Part shown: positions 6,597 to 41,872 of the stretch, one piece after another
Position numbering within the stretch: the stretch's first letter is position 1
Layout: every line of letters begins with the position of its first letter
Virus record (IMG/VR): IMGVR_UViG_3300038306_000028
Span: 1-41,872 of that record
Origin: a virus
DNA: 41,872 nt
Reading direction: 5' to 3' (one strand)
Notes under the pieces: model-generated
The model's input: only the letters and a program-made list of their open reading frames with translations
What the model was told of the DNA's origin: nothing
The model's database searches: none
Made by a program: the position numbers and the translations under genes

Positions 6597-6976
6597 GCGC
6601 TACGCGCATTAGCTGCGCCGCTTTAGCGGTGGCATTTTGCCGGAGCATCGAACTCGCGAAGGCCAGGGCTTCTCGCCGCGAAGCGGACAGAAACCTAGCC
6701 GGAGCAGCCGCACAACTCGAGGAAAAGGGAGTAACGCGACCCGTGACAACTTGGACTCAAGATGTAGTGACCGGAACGGGAACGGAATCTCGAGGGCACG
6801 GCGAAGCTGCGAACGCCCGTGATTCCCGGCTCCTCGAGCTTGGCCTCGTGATAGCGAACGCTGTGCTGGAACGAATCGACGATCCGAGAACAAGCCGTAG
6901 CTTCACCGAGTGACCTACGCAGTAGCCCTCGGCAGAGACACCAGCCCCGCAGGGAGAAAATTTTTGTGAAATTGAA

Positions 6977-6991
6977 GCGGGGACTCCCCGG
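6977..6991. repeat. GANTC-centred palindrome, copy 1
   Basis: GCGGGGACTCCCCGG, 14 of 15 positions of the consensus CCGGGGASTCCCCGG. Non-coding, just upstream of an AT-rich block. Confidence 0.85.
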
Positions 6992-7001
6992 ATCCGCAAC
7001 G

Positions 7002-8563: not shown

Positions 8564-8609
8564 AGCGAATCAACGAGCCTGTCGAAGCCGATACTGTGCT
8601 GAGCGGATG
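8564..8609 (+). repeat. Dispersed 46-50 bp repeat, copy A
   Basis: Begins AGCGAATCAACGAGCCTGTC and ends near ACTGTGCTGAGCGGATG. One of four related copies in this region. The ending is diverged, with GCTGAGCGGATG replacing GCCGAGCGGACGGATG. Confidence 0.65.
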
Positions 8610-8650
8610 TTCGTGATAGCGAAGGATGCTTTCTAGCTAGATTTGCTTAG

Positions 8651-8764: not shown

Positions 8765-8814
8765 AGCGAATCAACGAGCCTGTCGAAGCTAAGACTGTGC
8801 CGAGCGGACGGATG
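8765..8814 (+). repeat. Dispersed 46-50 bp repeat, copy C
   Basis: Begins AGCGAATCAACGAGCCTGTC, the same 20 bases as copy A, and ends ACTGTGCCGAGCGGACGGAT plus G. Followed within 10 bases by the ATCGGGACGATCGGCT element also present at 8458. Confidence 0.7.
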
Positions 8815-9045: not shown

Positions 9046-9126
9046 GGGCGGGAGGGGCTGAAGCGAATCGACGAGTCAGTCGAAGGCGACACTGTGCCGA
9101 GCGGACGGATGCGCCACAAGCCTTAG
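8947..9126 (+). CDS. Possible 59-residue Leu-rich membrane peptide
   Basis: A frame starting at ATG 8947. Residues 1-33 are almost all Leu and Met (MLMMIATLLLLPMLLLRMLL and on), encoded by CTG/ATG/CTA triplet repeats. Residues 34-59 are polar, and IDESVEGDTVPSGRM there comes from dispersed repeat copy D. The hydrophobic half would span a membrane, as in holins or type I toxins. Against it: there is no clear Shine-Dalgarno, and the open frame could simply be a by-product of a triplet repeat. Listed as a possible gene only. Confidence 0.25.
   Translation: MLMMIATLLLLPMLLLRMLLLLAMLLLTLMMLRGREGLKRIDESVEGDTVPSGRMRHKP
9062..9111 (+). repeat. Dispersed 46-50 bp repeat, copy D
   Basis: Begins AGCGAATCGACGAGTCAGTC and ends CACTGTGCCGAGCGGACGG plus ATG. 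It contains a small perfect dyad, TCGAC-GAGTCA-GTCGA. Lies about 250 bases after copy C, with the triplet block between them. Confidence 0.7.
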
Positions 9127-9259
9127 CGGCTGACGCGGAGCGAACGGAACGTGAGCGCAGCGAGACTGAGGAGGCACTAGGCCGACGAAGGCTGCTTCCG
9201 GGCGTGTTGTCACGGCGCAACGTGATAGTGCGTCCAGAGTTCATACAGGGCCGAGCAAA

Positions 9260-9274
9260 GCGGGGAGTCCCCGG
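9260..9274. repeat. GANTC-centred palindrome, copy 3
   Basis: GCGGGGAGTCCCCGG, non-coding, about 50 bases upstream of the promoter at 9323. Confidence 0.85.
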
Positions 9275-9322
9275 ACGCTAAACTATGCTAATATCTAACA
9301 TAAGTTTATATGGCTACTACAG

Positions 9323-9351: not shown

Positions 9352-9370
9352 TGGGGATCGCGTAAGAGAA

Positions 9371-9385
9371 CCGGGGAGTCCCCGG
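9371..9385. repeat. GANTC-centred palindrome, copy 4
   Basis: CCGGGGAGTCCCCGG, perfect consensus, about 14 bases after the predicted start of the early promoter. Confidence 0.88.
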
Positions 9386-9414
9386 ACGGCTACTTTCAGT
9401 AGTCGCTTACAGAA

Positions 9415-9429
9415 CCGGGGACTCCCCGG
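9415..9429. repeat. GANTC-centred palindrome, copy 5
   Basis: CCGGGGACTCCCCGG, perfect consensus, in the early mRNA leader 38 bases before the first early ATG. Copies 4 and 5 are spaced 44 bases apart start to start. Confidence 0.88.
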
Positions 9430-9466
9430 TTGACTACTTGTTCCTGATCAACAAAGGAGAAGACAG

Positions 9467-9676: not shown

Positions 9677-10071
9677 TGAAAGCTCGAACAGACACGCCAA
9701 ACCATGAGCATGACTGTATCCACTGCAAGTTTCTCGGTAACGACCACTACGGAAACGACTGGTATTTCTGCGAAGATTTTGTGTTTCCATCGTTAATGAG
9801 CACAGTCATCATGCGGCGCAGCAGCGAAGGACACGACTACCACTCCTTGCCGGTCTCGGCTTTATACGTAGAAGGGAAGTGGGATCCCGTAGAGCTGAAG
9901 ACTCCCAGGGTTCCACCTACAGACCCGTTGTCCTGGATATTCACCGCTTACCACGTTTGGCGGAAGCACGTCGTAGAACAGAAGAAAACCGGGGACTCCC
10001 CGGAAACTGGAGTTGACGTTGGACTGACGGCTGATGAAGCCGAGCAATACTACGGAGGAGAAGAAAAATGA
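9676..10071 (+). CDS. Early Cys/His-containing protein, unknown (131 aa)
   Basis: A 131-residue protein. The N-terminal third carries HDCIHCKFLGNDHYGNDWYF and a following Cys, a CX2C plus His pattern that may bind zinc, then VIMRRSSEGHDYHSLPVSAL. This layout recurs in small phage early proteins of unknown function. The middle, DPLSWIFTAYHVWRKHV, is amphipathic. A perfect palindrome copy (9989-10003) is embedded in frame near the C-terminus and read as Thr-Gly-Asp-Ser-Pro. The start ATG overlaps the previous stop, and the stop overlaps the next start, so it is part of a tight early operon. Confidence 0.75.
   Translation: MKARTDTPNHEHDCIHCKFLGNDHYGNDWYFCEDFVFPSLMSTVIMRRSSEGHDYHSLPVSALYVEGKWDPVELKTPRVPPTDPLSWIFTAYHVWRKHVVEQKKTGDSPETGVDVGLTADEAEQYYGGEEK
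9989..10003. repeat. GANTC-centred palindrome, copy 6
   Basis: CCGGGGACTCCCCGG, perfect consensus, inside an early gene. Same reading frame (Gly-Asp-Ser-Pro) as copy 2. Confidence 0.88.
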
Positions 10072-12617: not shown

Positions 12618-13262
12618 ATGAGGAACCGATACGGTAATCATGACATCCATAGGATGTCGGGGCGCATTGCTACGTGCCTCGCCTTAGCGAAGAGAGATAC
12701 GAGTGGAGCATGGCAACGTGACTGCTACTGGTATGGACATGCGTTTAGATTCGCTGATTCCGTTGCCGAATCACTGAATATCCAGGCGTTTACGGCGGTC
12801 GGCTTTATCGCTGCACTGTCTCCCCGCAACAGCTGGGAAGGTCAGAAGAAGCATACGAAGGTGCAGCTACAGGCTGCGCTACAGGGTCTCCCGATCCCTC
12901 ACGAGGGCACAGGGGACATGAAGAGGAAGGCTTCTGCTATTGCGGCAGGGGCTGACCCTCTCGACATCCTCCGAGGTCCGAAGACGAGGGCGTTCTACAT
13001 CGCTATTATGCTGGGATGTGCGGACAATAGCCATTGGGCTAACCTGATGTCTCGGGATGAGGACGTAGTAGTAGATGTCCATGCCTGGGCAGTAGCTACA
13101 GGCAAGCTGAACACGGCTCCTAACGTGACCGGGTATCGTGCAGCATCCCGTGCCTACCATGCCGTAGCTGATGCAGCAGGCATGAACGTCCACGCAGTGC
13201 AGGCCGTGACATGGGCACACTGGCGACGGACTAAGACGTTGGAGGAACCGAGCGATGGTTAA
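12618..13262 (+). CDS. Conserved phage protein, DUF7178-like (214 aa)
   Basis: A 214-residue protein starting at ATG 12618, with AGGAGG at 12602-12607. The pattern VGFIAALSPRNSWEGQKKH, then KRKASAIAAGADPLDILRG, then PKTRAFYIAIMLG, DVHAWAVATG and WAHWRR fits a helical family spread among phages that I associate with DUF7178. The order of helices, a Gly-rich hairpin-like turn and a late Asp is reminiscent of helix-hairpin-helix DNA glycosylases. I regard that only as a hint, because no key lysine can be fixed. It lies next to a DnaA-like gene, which suggests a DNA-related role. Confidence 0.6.
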   Translation: MRNRYGNHDIHRMSGRIATCLALAKRDTSGAWQRDCYWYGHAFRFADSVAESLNIQAFTAVGFIAALSPRNSWEGQKKHTKVQLQAALQGLPIPHEGTGDMKRKASAIAAGADPLDILRGPKTRAFYIAIMLGCADNSHWANLMSRDEDVVVDVHAWAVATGKLNTAPNVTGYRAASRAYHAVADAAGMNVHAVQAVTWAHWRRTKTLEEPSDG

Positions 13263-13635
13263 TCCAGGTGACCCCTTCTACTTCGAAGTAAATGAGAAGC
13301 CGCTCAGGATGAGTAGGCGGATCAAGATCACTCCTGACATGATCATAGCTGCCGTCTGCCTGGAATATGGCAGGGTTAAGGATGATCTGCTTGCCGAGGA
13401 CAGGAGAAGGCACTTCAGCGAGCCGCGCAAAGTAGCTGCCTACTTAGTGCGTCTCAATTCTCACTTGACGTTACAGGAAGTAGCGCGTCTGTTCCTTCGT
13501 AACGACCACACTACAGCGATCTCATGGATCAAGTGGGCGAGGAAGCAGAGAGAAAGTGCGTGGTTTCAACGTGTAATTGAGATGGTTCACGCTAGACTCA
13601 AGCAACTTGATGATGAGCTAGTATTGGCATGGTGA
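13255..13635 (+). CDS. DnaA domain IV-like DNA-binding protein (126 aa)
   Basis: A 126-residue protein beginning at ATG 13255, GGAGG upstream, overlapping the preceding gene by 8 bases. Residues about 50-95 resemble the C-terminal DNA-binding domain of bacterial DnaA: SEPRKVAAYLVRLNSHLTLQ, then EVARLFLRNDHTTAIS. DHTT (84-87) corresponds to the conserved DHTTV signature that contacts the DnaA box. The AAA+ ATPase domain is absent, so it can bind but not unwind by itself. Free-standing DnaA-C proteins in phages could occupy host or phage origin boxes to divert or block host replication, or serve the phage origin. I found no clear TTATCCACA box in the window. Confidence 0.78.
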   Translation: MVNPGDPFYFEVNEKPLRMSRRIKITPDMIIAAVCLEYGRVKDDLLAEDRRRHFSEPRKVAAYLVRLNSHLTLQEVARLFLRNDHTTAISWIKWARKQRESAWFQRVIEMVHARLKQLDDELVLAW

Positions 13636-13769
13636 ACCGGTGCGATCTATGCCGCGTAGTCACAGCCATTATCAAGACTGATGATCTTTACGGTGATCTA
13701 TGTTTAGATTGCTATTCAATAGTCGAGGAAGAGGTTCCTCCAGGAGAGAGAGAGAGAAGTTATGAGTAA
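13629..13769 (+). CDS. Mini zinc-ribbon protein (46 aa)
   Basis: A 46-residue frame overlapping the 3' end of the DnaA-like gene. It has two CX2C knuckles, CDLC (5-8) and CLDC (25-28), 16 residues apart, as in small rubredoxin-like zinc ribbons. A Glu-rich tail encoded partly by a GAGAGA run follows. The start may be ATG 13629 or the in-frame GTG 13632. No strong Shine-Dalgarno precedes either. It overlaps the next ATG by 8 bases. Small zinc ribbons in early phage regions often bind nucleic acids or RNA polymerase, but no target can be named. Confidence 0.55.
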   Translation: MVNRCDLCRVVTAIIKTDDLYGDLCLDCYSIVEEEVPPGERERSYE

Positions 13770-14040
13770 CGAAGTTATCAAGGGTCTTCCAGACATCAAG
13801 CCGCGCAACTCAACGAACGGCCAGTATGCGCTCGGTAAGGCGGCAGCACTGAAGGTCAGCAAGGCAGGGCCAGGGCATCACAGCGTGACGTCCTTTGATT
13901 CCGGCTCGGACGCTGAAGTGTCAAGCTTCACGGCGGGCGCACGCGCCACTGCCGATGGCGTAGTGGCTGGTCTCGTAGTATCTCGGCGCAAGATGCCGCT
14001 GGGATCCATCAACGTATACGTGATCCATAATCCATCGTAG
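13762..14040 (+). CDS. Early protein, unknown (92 aa)
   Basis: A 92-residue basic protein with ATG 13762 after a CAGGAGAGAGAGAGAGAAG leader. The first half is Gly/Asn/Ser-rich and probably flexible (KPRNSTNGQYALGKAAALKV). The second half is compact, with GVVAGLVVSRRKM and SINVYVIHNPS, possibly two beta strands. No family recognised. It is the last gene before a 121-base leader with unusual repeats. Confidence 0.62.
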   Translation: MSNEVIKGLPDIKPRNSTNGQYALGKAAALKVSKAGPGHHSVTSFDSGSDAEVSSFTAGARATADGVVAGLVVSRRKMPLGSINVYVIHNPS

Positions 14041-14051
14041 TAAGCGATGAA

Positions 14052-14078
14052 TAGGAGACGGGCCGCGCATGTCTCCTA
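14052..14078 (+). promoter_or_regulatory. Hairpin in the leader of the DUF932-like gene
   Basis: TAGGAGAC and GTCTCCTA form a perfect 8-bp stem with an 11-base loop. No T-run follows, so it is not a standard terminator. It stands directly before the duplicated 30-base element and may be an RNA-processing or regulatory stem. Confidence 0.45.
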
Positions 14079-14079
14079 A

Positions 14080-14109
14080 TGCACTACAGGGCACCGTCCC
14101 TTGGTAACA
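14080..14109 (+). repeat. 30-base direct repeat, leader copy
   Basis: Begins TGCACTACAGGGCACCGTCC and ends TTGGTAACA. It matches 14361-14390 inside the following gene at 29 of 30 positions. The only difference is T here versus G there. Confidence 0.85.
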
Positions 14110-14110
14110 G

Positions 14111-14147
14111 TTAGATACGCGGATTTACTTAGTTCCTTAGATACACG
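14111..14147 (+). repeat. Two 11-base TTAGATACRCG repeats
   Basis: TTAGATACGCG at 14111-14121 and TTAGATACACG at 14137-14147, 26 bases apart, just before the DUF932-like gene. They could be tandem binding or promoter elements. Nothing further supports either. Confidence 0.35.
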
Positions 14148-14161
14148 AGAGGTTTTAGAAG

Positions 14162-15031
14162 ATGACTGCTACACTTATCCCAGAAGCTCCCACCCCGTAT
14201 GACCCAGGTAACTGGGGTCAGATCGTTGACGCTAAGACGATCGAGAAGACGCCGGTCCCTACCCAGGGTCCAGAGACATGGCGACCACTGCCACACAAGT
14301 GGGCGATTGACACGCTAGAAGAAGAGTTCCGTATGGCTGGCTTCGAGCACAGCGAAGGGCTGCACTACAGGGCACCGTCCCGTGGTAACAAGAAGATCAA
14401 GGATCTCCCTGAGTATGGGCGGTTCCTTAGCATGTATGGCTTGAAGCACCATGGTCTGCCTGCGATCCCTGGACAGCGATGGGAAGCAGGGCTGATGAAC
14501 AGCTATGACATGACGACGAGCCTACAGGGATTCCTAGGCGAGCGTCTCGACGTATGCTCCAACGGTATGATCATGGGTGCGACCGATCAGTTCCGGCGCA
14601 AGCATACGAAAGGCATCGACGTAGACAGAGAGGGTCACTTCGAGTTGATCCGTAAGCTGATTCACAACGTCGTTGCTAGCTTGATTCCGAAGGCAGAGGC
14701 TAGAGTCTGGCGATGTGAGATGTTCAAGGACACTGAGTGCAGCAACCAGCAGGCACGGGACATCATCGTTGAGTCTGCTAAGAAGGAAGTGATCGGTGCT
14801 GCCGCAGTGATGCGAGTGCTCAAGCACTGGGAAGAGCCAGAGCACCCAGAGTTTAAGGACAGGAACCTATGGTCTCTCTTTAATGCCTTTACGAGCAACG
14901 ACCGAGGTCGTAACATCATGACTCAGTCCGACAGGTTCAGCAAGCTGGACGCAATCATTGATGATCGGTTCAACATCGATACTGGATCGAACAAGCTGAC
15001 GCTAGACACGGTCACCGGAGGGGACTTCTAA
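14162..15031 (+). CDS. DUF932-like protein (289 aa)
   Basis: A 289-residue protein with ATG 14162 after a GAGAGG leader. It resembles the DUF932 family of phage and plasmid proteins: NSYDMTTSLQGFLGERLDVC, then SNGMIMGATDQFRRKHTKG, then a helical second half and LWSLFNAFTSNDRGRN near the end. The family's molecular role is unsettled. It is often a highly expressed phage early or middle gene. Residues about 67-76 (LHYRAPSRGN) are encoded by the copy of the 30-base element duplicated in the leader. A terminator-like stem follows the stop, separating it from the RNA polymerase gene. Confidence 0.65.
   Translation: MTATLIPEAPTPYDPGNWGQIVDAKTIEKTPVPTQGPETWRPLPHKWAIDTLEEEFRMAGFEHSEGLHYRAPSRGNKKIKDLPEYGRFLSMYGLKHHGLPAIPGQRWEAGLMNSYDMTTSLQGFLGERLDVCSNGMIMGATDQFRRKHTKGIDVDREGHFELIRKLIHNVVASLIPKAEARVWRCEMFKDTECSNQQARDIIVESAKKEVIGAAAVMRVLKHWEEPEHPEFKDRNLWSLFNAFTSNDRGRNIMTQSDRFSKLDAIIDDRFNIDTGSNKLTLDTVTGGDF
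14361..14390 (+). repeat. 30-base direct repeat, coding copy
   Basis: Matches the leader copy at 14080-14109 in 29 of 30 positions, same orientation, 281 bases downstream, inside the DUF932-like gene. Confidence 0.85.
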
Positions 15032-15040
15032 TCGCACACC

Positions 15041-15122
15041 GCTGCCTCCCTGAGCGACACGCCTAGTCAGCGTGCTTCTCCCCCTCCCTATGACTCGCTC
15101 GGGAGGCAGCATTTTCCTTTTC
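15041..15122 (+). terminator. Intrinsic terminator-like structure before the RNA polymerase gene
   Basis: GCTGCCTCCC (15041-15050) pairs perfectly with GGGAGGCAGC (15101-15110). TGAGCGA and TCGCTC extend the stem with one bulge. The large loop holds a CACGC-GCGTG mini-stem, and ATTTTCCTTTTCT follows. It would reduce host-polymerase readthrough into the phage polymerase gene. The 3' arm contains GGGAGG, the only Shine-Dalgarno-like run before the polymerase ATG. Confidence 0.65.
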
Positions 15123-25592: not shown

Positions 25593-26310
25593 TTATCAGA
25601 AAGTAGAGATCGTGCAGAGTGCAGAGGAGCCGCAAGCAGAAGAGGCAGTTGCGCCACAGGCCGACAGGCCCGAGTGGCTGCCTGAGAAGTTTGCTGCTCC
25701 AGAGGATCTCGCTAAAGCTTACGGAGAGCTTCAGACGAAGATGTCAGAGGCACCCGAAGAATCCGGGGAGTCCCCGGATGAACCAGCGGAAGTCGAGAGT
25801 CCTGCTGAGACAGGCGGGAAAGACTTCACGAAGTTCTCTGACGAGTTCGCTGAAACGGGCGAGCTATCCAGTGAATCTATCACGGAAATCAAGTCCTGGG
25901 GTATCCCTCAAGCGATGATCGACGGTTACATGGAAGGACAGAAGGCTGTCCAGAAAGCGACCTTCGATACCGTATACGGATTGACTGGTGGAGAAGAAGG
26001 CTACAAGTCGATGCTTGAGTGGGCTGAAGGCAGCCTGCCTGAAGGCGAACAGTCAGCTTTCAACAAGATCGTTACTACGGGTGATACGGACGAAATGATG
26101 TTCGCTGTGCGTAGCCTAGCTAACCGCTGGAAAGCTGAAGCAGGCGAGACGAAGCCTCTAGTCCAGGGGTCCACAGCAGCTTCAGGTGCCTCTGGCGGTT
26201 TCCGTTCACTAGCTGAACTCACTAACGCGATGAAGGATCCGAAGTATCAGAAGGATCCCGCTTACCGAAAAGACGTCGAAAACCGACTACGAGTCTCCTC
26301 CATCATATAA
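25585..26310 (+). CDS. Capsid assembly scaffolding protein (T7 gp9-like)
   Basis: A 241-residue, strongly acidic protein between portal and capsid genes. The N-terminus is rich in Glu, Ala and Pro (EEPQAEEAVAPQADRPEWLP), followed by KFAAPEDLAKAYGELQTKM, a linker, a helical part (ESITEIKSWGIPQAMIDGYM, SMLEWAEGSLPE) and a basic C-terminal segment (KDPKYQKDPAYRKDVENRLR) that contacts capsid subunits. The order acidic, helical, basic tail is standard. Palindrome copy 7 lies in the linker, coded as Ser-Gly-Glu-Ser-Pro. It templates capsid assembly and then leaves. Confidence 0.9.
   Translation: MSDYQKVEIVQSAEEPQAEEAVAPQADRPEWLPEKFAAPEDLAKAYGELQTKMSEAPEESGESPDEPAEVESPAETGGKDFTKFSDEFAETGELSSESITEIKSWGIPQAMIDGYMEGQKAVQKATFDTVYGLTGGEEGYKSMLEWAEGSLPEGEQSAFNKIVTTGDTDEMMFAVRSLANRWKAEAGETKPLVQGSTAASGASGGFRSLAELTNAMKDPKYQKDPAYRKDVENRLRVSSII
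25763..25777. repeat. GANTC-centred palindrome, copy 7
   Basis: CCGGGGAGTCCCCGG, perfect consensus, inside the scaffold gene and far from the other six copies. Same reading frame as the other coding copies (Gly-Glu-Ser-Pro). Confidence 0.88.
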
Positions 26311-40400: not shown

Positions 40401-41872
40401 ATTAAGAAAGCTAACATGGAAGCGCATAGAGCAGGGCAAACGCTAACTGATCTAGAAGTTGTCCGCGCTGTGCGTAGTGGAGAGAAGATTGACTTGGATT
40501 CGCCGCTCGGTAAAGCAGTAGAAGCTGTTCGGAAGTTCCACAGGGAGATCCTAGAACACGGTAAGAGTAAAGGAGTCTTCTCTGAAGGCATCCCTGCTGA
40601 TGACGCTTACTTCCATAGGCAGTGGAACCCTATTAAGCTCAGAAGAATTATTGAGACAAGGTTTAAGGGGGATTACGAGGCTGGCGCAAAGCGGATAACG
40701 CAGTTTATCGCAAAAGCTATTCTTAAGAAGAATGAGACGGGAGTCAATGAATCTCAGGCAAGGCGAATGGCTGAGCGCATCTTTGATTACATAGGTGACC
40801 CGACCGCCAAGAATGACTGGCAAGCTACTCGGATCATGTTCGCTAATACGAAAGAGAAGCTGAAAGGGGACTTCATGATGGACGCTCAGAGGGCGACCGG
40901 AAAAGCGGTCACGAGCGAAGCCGAAGCGGCGATTGATCGCAGTGTTGATGACTTCATGGAATTGATCATACCTAGCATGGATGGTGGTAATGCTCACATA
41001 TCCTACGGTAGACCTCGGATCAAATTAGATGAGTCGTATTCAGAAGTGATGGAGGACGGTGTCATTCTTCATCTAGATGAGTTGATGGAGAACGGCATCG
41101 AAGAGAACACGGCTCGTTATGCTCAGAAAATACTAGGTGGGGCAGAGGTTAGGAACGGCATCAAAGCAGTATTTGGCGACGCCAATACGTCCTATGCTGA
41201 CATGGAAGCTCGCATCGTTAAGGAAGCTAAGGCTTCCGGGGAAGCGCATAAAGTAGACTTCTACAAGGCTGTCCTAAGCCATACTTACAGAAGCCTCACG
41301 GGTCAGGCTATCTACAATAAGACTGCTCTCAAGTGGGCGCAGGGTGCTACTGCGTTGAACCACTCCACTCTCGGGATGGTTCTAGGGTTCGCACAGATCC
41401 CTGAGTTGATGAACATTATCAGCCGCACTAGCTTCAAGGCGGCGATTCAGCAGTTTGACTTCCACGACATTCGCCAAGTCTTCTTGATGGGAGTCCGTGA
41501 CCTAGCCAATAAGAAGAAGACTGGTAAGCAGGGTATGGGACTTGTCGATGAAGCTAACGACTTATCGGCAGTGATCGAGACATGGACTGGTATTGGTGGA
41601 GACTACGGACGCAATGACCACTTCATGCACATCATGGACGACATGGCTTTCGACACTGATGCAGCCCATAAGGGCGCAGTCGGTAACTTCCTTGAGAAGG
41701 GACGCCAGTTTGCGAGCCTGAACCCGATGGGGATCATGCCGATGGACTTGTTTATGCGTCGTTGGGCAGCAAGGGCATCCTTCCAGCATTTCGTCAATAC
41801 TGCTTACGCGGTTGACGGGGCGGGCACCGCTATTCTTAAAGACAGTTGGTGGAAGCAGTCTGCGAAGAGGTT
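37488..41872 (+). CDS. Internal virion protein D (gp16-like), N-terminal and main part
   Basis: The first part of a 1727-residue protein that continues in frame at 3-926. ATG 37488 overlaps the gp15-like stop. The N-terminus, MSGLSVPNPGEQPQLPNPSD and RPRWWIADVPEERTMQQIQA, is followed by a hydrophobic region at about 145-195 (GGFSASMLAMGGEAVAITLL) and a long charged helical middle. A compact part with PKWLQSAVGKFDYLFTGVTS is near residue 905. T7 gp16 carries an N-terminal lytic transglycosylase. I do not see its catalytic Glu motif here, so wall cleavage may be absent or elsewhere. It is larger than T7 gp16 (1318). Confidence 0.82.
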   Translation, partial: MSGLSVPNPGEQPQLPNPSDLRPVADYPEPRPRWWIADVPEERTMQQIQAAMTSKVNENIGFWGTIGTALTIDTITGEFISDMDGVASTNGTYEPTDKEREYFASDIPKYVVDRIADVSTNKDQFLYELQQARISIRRRNEMMSGGTLGAVGGFSASMLAMGGEAVAITLLGGAIFPTLAAVGGAATVAGRVRRGAGAVKGLVSNLAVDVPLEMTRYELDKTMTPTDVMIGLGASAVLGSAVGAWKPHMYLRPIQNMSEVAARRKAADALRRAGDEKAAKALEDSVNPRVRVVPHDEDVEDLASMPLGHTNQQPGSLRSEAKARGVKEDRVVSVESEVDLESEVLIGGLSREESDLLDGIFPAGTKADVRVGEGGLTDNESLFLDRVFRKEGAPGEGGLTSAEVGLLDTLSPRSVLETGFARVGDGGLTGSEANFLKVVFRQTETKKAAPRELLVKGEDIPGDIGGTVTAGSRADLVVNRRLLSERSPELLQRMEAWFNTYLRAPKYARESASFPSPDDAAKGFTAEEAQLARNYGDALKRAAAIADAEEGGIPLKKIRAELKLSIKLAEEGKGNVKRGVKVRKPEIIKKTAEELRADLLAKRRADQPKSPAVRKQVDRDWAALDDAGRAREARRVGVDENLIKRGSARALLNAVKKATVAVARTGQAVVQSMGGLPYNVKLNKAISITPDKGKGAVSVAFASPLEAMLNKLATAKGGTKKADDARQAIIDWFKEAGVEDPVALARQFRDELRNRARLARNKGTTTLVADSKNMSLAAAVRVAKDGSKFTPKLGQHLFEQRTKQSVSVRSDLYPNSNVKRSEVTNKAERGEMDQLSAADEAESVVTGADGEIISVGPTAFIGLDPEKLAAREASQYGIQVGAGFRENLATSIDSLEAIARHWNAPKWLQSAVGKFDYLFTGVTSRVMGGKTAIMRKFVAVMLDDPRGLQAHSVTSAIKANTEAASTRLHTAIKKANMEAHRAGQTLTDLEVVRAVRSGEKIDLDSPLGKAVEAVRKFHREILEHGKSKGVFSEGIPADDAYFHRQWNPIKLRRIIETRFKGDYEAGAKRITQFIAKAILKKNETGVNESQARRMAERIFDYIGDPTAKNDWQATRIMFANTKEKLKGDFMMDAQRATGKAVTSEAEAAIDRSVDDFMELIIPSMDGGNAHISYGRPRIKLDESYSEVMEDGVILHLDELMENGIEENTARYAQKILGGAEVRNGIKAVFGDANTSYADMEARIVKEAKASGEAHKVDFYKAVLSHTYRSLTGQAIYNKTALKWAQGATALNHSTLGMVLGFAQIPELMNIISRTSFKAAIQQFDFHDIRQVFLMGVRDLANKKKTGKQGMGLVDEANDLSAVIETWTGIGGDYGRNDHFMHIMDDMAFDTDAAHKGAVGNFLEKGRQFASLNPMGIMPMDLFMRRWAARASFQHFVNTAYAVDGAGTAILKDSWWKQSAKR
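41746..41872. repeat. Terminal direct repeat, right copy (assembly overlap)
   Basis: Identical to bases 1-127 and lies in the same reading frame. See the left copy. It shows that the contig is circularly closed or circularly permuted. Confidence 0.93.

Follow-up and report, generated by a model that had tools for sequence, protein, structure and literature searches.

The preQ1-I and SAM-II riboswitches are H-type pseudoknots, the leader pseudoknot of phage T4 gene 32 allows one ssDNA-binding protein to control its own gene, and ToxI, the RNA of type III toxin-antitoxin systems, is arranged as tandem repeats before the toxin gene. Here we describe a conserved pseudoknot in the leader of a DUF932-like phage gene, the third loop of which appears to have received a copied segment of that same gene. 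Taken jointly, the insertion into loop 3 and the conservation of the leader pseudoknot are made very probable by the sequence comparisons below.

The motif resembles preQ1-I and SAM-II in its size (∼35–45 nt), its two interlocked helices (the hairpin stem S1, and S2, formed by the hairpin loop), its conserved loop letters and its place near a ribosome binding site. It differs from them in the identity of the loop letters, in having no Rfam match in the scanned stretches, in the lack of a pathway common to the downstream genes and, in the cases read, in the position of the S2 arm, which is upstream of the ribosome binding site and not over it. Like the T4 gene 32 leader, it is a phage messenger pseudoknot near a gene start, but the genes downstream of it vary and are not those of one ssDNA-binding protein. 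With ToxI it shares the pseudoknot and a short stem of the GGU..ACC type; unlike ToxI, it is single-copy in 22 of 23 matching records and is followed by varied genes. General family searches detected no ToxN-like toxin among 10 downstream proteins (PHROGs) and 10 proteins (Pfam).

In mycobacteriophage D29, a transcript at the 63–64 junction is reported to be enriched over its neighbours and to be a candidate noncoding RNA (PMC5712189). The junction that carries the motif in the related Mycobacterium phage SWU1 corresponds to this D29 junction, next to dnaB, a correspondence of gene order only and therefore a lead and not proof. The D29 junction itself (L121, 4797–4960, minus strand) is without the motif; its sequence is another one, rich in GC and possibly forming a long stem, for which no Rfam match was found.

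Searches with Rfam 15 at gathering score placed no family at the motif in 8 loci, and in E-value mode (the window stretch, the related contig L025 and 9 further loci) returned only sub-threshold matches at chance level there. A candidate match of L025 to freshwater-2 (RF02980) was rejected, scoring 16.9 bits against a threshold of 49.9, and the hairpin of that family did not fall on S1. No description of the motif was found in literature searches, whose coverage of subscription papers was thin, or in a text search of PMC4729954. The pseudoknot family appears to be new, within an H-type architecture that is already a known kind.

The window and the DUF932 gene neighbourhood

The window is the whole stretch of DNA analysed, 41,872 nt of the virus record IMGVR_UViG_3300038306_000028. 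Gene family searches indicate a T7-like gene content, and the two ends are identical 127-bp direct repeats (1–127 and 41746–41872), so that the record probably represents a complete genome bounded by terminal repeats, or else a circular assembly. A phage database searched by DNA and by protein gave no match to the window region, and no close relative of the phage was found.

The gene that carries the coding copy of the duplicate had been described as DUF932-like in a first-pass annotation made from the sequence, an assignment upheld by a PF06067 score of 25.2 bits (Pfam cut-off 23) and by the predicted protein structure, whose best fold matches include viral DUF932 models. Compared with solved structures, the predicted fold gave no match at E 0.001, and a second look gave a best Z of 7.5, an uninformative comparison; Rad52, considered for a possible Rad52-like annealing protein, reached an E of about 0.5 in Foldseek and was absent among the matches listed in the second look. 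A single-subunit RNA polymerase gene lies directly downstream.

Several other features were observed in the window. Two genes upstream of the DUF932 gene, positions 13255–13635 encode a phage protein in which the C-terminal domain of bacterial DnaA is recognised (PF08299, E 4.7e-14), and between the DUF932 and RNA polymerase genes a large inverted repeat, rich in GC and with T-rich sequence behind it (15038–15120), is terminator-like by eye. A palindrome close to CCGGGGAGTCCCCGG is dispersed at 6968–6992, 9251–9275, 9362–9386, 9411–9439, 9980–10004 and 25754–25778. Three 50-nt repeats, 84–86% identical to a reference copy, are found at 8564–8613, 8765–8814 and 9062–9111, where long plus-strand ORFs are few.

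The duplicated 30-mer and the leader pseudoknot

The first-pass annotation had pointed to a 30-base segment of the DUF932 gene repeated in its own leader, and this duplicate is reproduced, with 29/30 identical bases in the same orientation at a spacing of 281 nt (Table 1). The match can be extended to 37 nt at 89%, and with up to 3 mismatches allowed there is no third copy in the window (0 copies expected from 100 shuffles). The reading frames of the two copies differ (the leader mini-frame is at 14069–14107), and thus no protein segment has been duplicated. Since the coding segment is homologous to the coding sequence of relatives (20/30 identical to L001), copying went from the gene to the leader; at the single differing base the gene has G, as in L001.

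The leader copy is preceded, as had also been noted, by an 8-bp hairpin with a perfect stem (TAGGAGAC/GTCTCCTA) and an 11-base loop, which folds better than 200/200 shuffles (z −3.4). Overlooked at that stage was the complementarity of CCGCG in the hairpin loop to CGCGG just past the duplicate, which places the duplicate within a pseudoknot. All of the S2 pairs (5/5) are present and both helices are still complementary, while the leader as a whole folds no better than shuffled sequence when folded without pseudoknots (z 0.49). Loop 3 is 39 nt long, compared with 4–22 nt elsewhere, and is reduced to 9 nt when the 30-mer is removed, suggesting that the leader copy entered this loop by a templated insertion. 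A TAGAT.ACGCG block was considered as a promoter and rejected as a single copy in the window.

Table 1. Features of the DUF932 leader and adjacent genes, with positions in the window
Feature	Position	Strand	Evidence or remark
Upstream gene, 92 aa, no family found	13762–14040	+	11 nt between its stop codon and the pseudoknot
S1 5' arm, TAGGAGAC	14052–14059	+	Pairing, fold test
Loop 1, GGG	14060–14062	+	
S2 5' arm, CCGCG	14063–14067	+	Pairing
Loop 2, CAT	14068–14070	+	
S1 3' arm, GTCTCCTA	14071–14078	+	Pairing, fold test
Loop 3, 39 nt, holds the insert	14079–14117	+	Range in the 49 other tabulated instances, 4–22 nt
Leader copy of the 30-mer, insert in loop 3	14080–14109	+	29/30 match to the coding copy
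S2 3' arm, CGCGG, within block TAGATACGCGGATTTAC (14112–14128) common to L009 and L001	14118–14122	+	
DUF932-like gene	14162–15031	+	PF06067 match; predicted fold resembles viral DUF932 models
Coding copy of the 30-mer, source of the duplicate	14361–14390	+	Homologous to coding sequence of relatives

Related leaders and the uninterrupted site

Searches at the protein level, with the DUF932 protein and the polymerase as queries, yielded 21 distinct viral contigs, with a readable DUF932 leader in 16 (of the other five, two break off within the gene and three lack a DUF932 match over the stretch examined). Six of the 16 leaders (L001, L008, L009, L010, L021 and L025) contain the hairpin loop GGG-NNGCG-YAT followed, after 8–13 nt, by a complementary CGCNN, and the insert is absent in all six. 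A different pseudoknot occupies the same place in four leaders (L011, L012, L013 and L027), with the form GGGT-..CTGCG..-ACCC-linker-CGCAG and a paired change in L027 (CTGTG with CACGG). A pattern scan for this second kind (e.g. L012, 1423–1450) gives 7 loci, four of which are these same relatives. Neither kind of pseudoknot is present in the remaining six leaders (L014, L015, L031, L035, L018 and L004), an absence that, like the occurrence of the second kind, counts against a conserved leader pseudoknot.

The block TAGATACGCGGATTTAC, which follows the insert in the window, matches a block directly behind the hairpin in L009 at 16/17 positions with one gap (3/1000 shuffles as good), and a block behind the hairpin in L001 at 15/17 (23/1000 shuffles as good). 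The alignment scores for this block are 26 (L009) and 22 (L001), compared with 10 for the insert. MAFFT placed the insert differently, which counts against the insertion reading.

The first-pass annotation had proposed a comparison with relatives, taking those that lack the leader copy as the sign of a chance duplication, and by that rule the duplicate is a chance event. Among the origins it had considered, a recent duplication is supported by the six related pseudoknot leaders without the insert and by the ancestral coding copy. In mechanistic terms, ∼30 nt of the DUF932 gene would have been copied 281 nt upstream into loop 3 in a single templated insertion, a template switch during replication being the probable copying step. 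The leader copy is probably an accident and, judged from the sequences, the insert is most likely neutral because loop 3 varies in length. It is the hairpin beside the duplicate, and not the duplicate, that looks functional.

The pseudoknot family

A pattern scan of viral contigs gives 60 loci, compared with 3 when the last five letters are scrambled, and two of these three control loci (L101 and L103) are true motifs with a short linker. Closings of the G-N-Y/R-Y-C type other than GGT/ACC are found in 10 loci, with both helices in 6. Standard pairs account for 94 of the 100 free S2 pairs in 50 non-redundant instances, whereas permuted partners give a mean of 55 and a maximum of 68 (2000 permutations). 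A few of the 50 instances may be chance, for example L043 (bacterial DUF444 context) and L044 (overlapping open frames).

The alignment A4 combines 45 of the 50 instances (leaving out the window and four with a loop 3 of >14 nt) with 12 later ones, for which the S2 arm was picked by best pairing, a choice of which the 94/100 count is free; L102, L105, L108, L109 and L112 are outside the alignment. For the 57 aligned instances, which exclude the window, the covariation score is 0.428, compared with 0.132 for shuffled alignments; slid structures reach no more than 0.101. Pairs of the types G-C, C-G, U-A, A-U, G-U and U-G are seen at the free S2 positions, and the S1 closing pair is seen as U-A, C-G and A-U. 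The pairing of the hairpin loop with the strand beyond the stem, characteristic of an H-type pseudoknot, is backed here by compensatory changes. Conservation cannot be judged at GGG, GCG, YAT and CACGC, since the patterns forced these letters.

When the A4 model (S1 only, window left out) is applied, the window leader is the top match, with 23.1 bits compared with 9.9 for the next. The model gives 10 places in 6 genomes among 151 Corynebacterium genomes. Eight of these loci were examined (one from a genome already matched by the stricter pattern scan), and seven yielded 8 pattern instances, L133 yielding none; S2 is paired 5/5 in 8/8 instances, and a stop codon lies 7–10 nt before the motif in 7/8. 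A second match in BFK20 (18.8 bits, E 0.2) was taken as chance.

Hosts and gene context

The motif is present in the isolated Corynebacterium phage BFK20 and in the Mycobacterium phages Archie, Wyatt2, Tourach (Lclasvirinae), Ph8s, Serenity and SWU1 (Fromanvirus), and Efra2. In the mycobacteriophages, S1 varies between GGT/ACC, GGC/GCC and GAT/ATC, and the loop between the arms is constant. The stricter pattern occurs at only 2 places in the bacterial genome collection. Copies per record were counted with a pattern that misses the window's own motif, loop 3 of which is too long; 23 of 29 records match, 22 with a single copy and one with three, at least 2 kb apart.

The genes downstream of the motif are unrelated, and include those for DNA polymerase, major head protein, replication initiator and DUF932, together with many unknown genes. 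Two candidate partners were rejected: Ro/TROVE, from the annotation of cluster L phages (PF05731 in 0/26 records), and DUF932 as a partner common to the family (6/26 records at E 0.01, a weak negative since the search missed the window's own DUF932 gene).

A stop codon (of a frame of at least 60 codons) ends 4–15 nt before S1 in 33/46 cases, compared with 3.8% for random positions in the same loci, and a Shine-Dalgarno-like site and a start codon are usually found downstream of the motif. The fixed stop distance had raised the idea of readthrough or frameshifting by the pseudoknot, which was discarded since, by eye, a second stop directly follows in the window and no slippery run is evident in the stretches inspected. 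In five loci (L045, L047, L058, L064 and L086), a promoter-like TTGACA...TAAxAT is seen by eye between the motif and the start, which counts against a leader role there. In L045, L047, L058 and L064 the −10 element lies ∼6 nt before the ATG of a 67–73-aa gene, an arrangement that suggests leaderless transcripts. A Pistol ribozyme is detected above gathering score (36.3 bits) at L059 535–582, ∼400 nt before the motif.

Possible roles of the pseudoknot

The pseudoknot is a phage-borne RNA element between cistrons, usually placed in the interval from a stop codon, which it closely follows, to the ribosome binding site of the next cistron, and would act in cis on the messenger. The position between two cistrons fits control of translation or message stability. 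Such control of the downstream gene in cis, with the help of a partner common to many hosts, is a serious possibility that we advance tentatively.

The motif could instead belong to the end of the upstream message, serving in 3'-end protection, processing or termination. This somewhat unlikely reading draws on the tight stop-codon distance, on the promoter-like pair that follows the motif in the five loci named above, and on six related contigs with a homologous upstream gene and a differing downstream gene; in compact genomes, however, both junction distances are near the minimum, so the tight spacing may be packing, and no T-run follows the motif in the sequences examined. A metabolite-sensing riboswitch or self-cleaving ribozyme of the compact pseudoknot type would account for a size and architecture that resemble those of known pseudoknot riboswitches and for loop letters that are constant across distant hosts, though several are forced by the patterns, but the scanned stretches gave no Rfam match and the downstream genes have no common pathway, leaving this an unlikely identity.

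Action as DNA (an origin, a recombination site or a protein site) would agree with the mostly single copy per record and with the place before a replication initiator gene in one record (L061), but is very unlikely given compensatory changes in two interlocked helices, some of them G-U pairs, and an orientation that is fixed relative to the genes. The autoregulatory site envisaged in the first-pass annotation, with the DUF932 protein or a small RNA binding both the leader and the coding copy, had its appeal in two near-identical copies that flank the start of one gene and in a protein without known function. It found no support and is highly improbable: relatives that have the gene have the coding segment and not the leader copy, the insert, folded by itself, is no different from shuffled sequence (z 0.47), and the adjoining pseudoknot also precedes many non-DUF932 genes. 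The suggestion in the same annotation that the leader copy is a decoy, a second identical target that could in principle absorb a CRISPR or antisense guide directed at the gene, can hardly be right. A second DNA target would leave the first unprotected, and a 19-base core of the duplicate is nowhere matched exactly among the bacterial genomes searched, although the test is weak since that collection contains no short contigs.

Control of the downstream gene in cis can be extended to a fuller and more doubtful proposal, in which the motif would represent a new compact class of phage pseudoknots that has moved by horizontal transfer between unrelated phages of distant hosts and that controls genes at cistron junctions, either by binding a single conserved partner in the host (a metabolite, the ribosome or a ribonuclease) or by cleaving itself; the window would then be a natural loop-3 insertion mutant.

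The duplicate alone is a small mutation, but it pointed to a conserved RNA structure of ∼40 nt carried by many unrelated phages, among them laboratory mycobacteriophages and corynephage BFK20. The presence of the motif in cultured phages makes it testable now, and the fact that a single small RNA has spread so widely ahead of unrelated genes suggests that phages use it as a general tool in their hosts.
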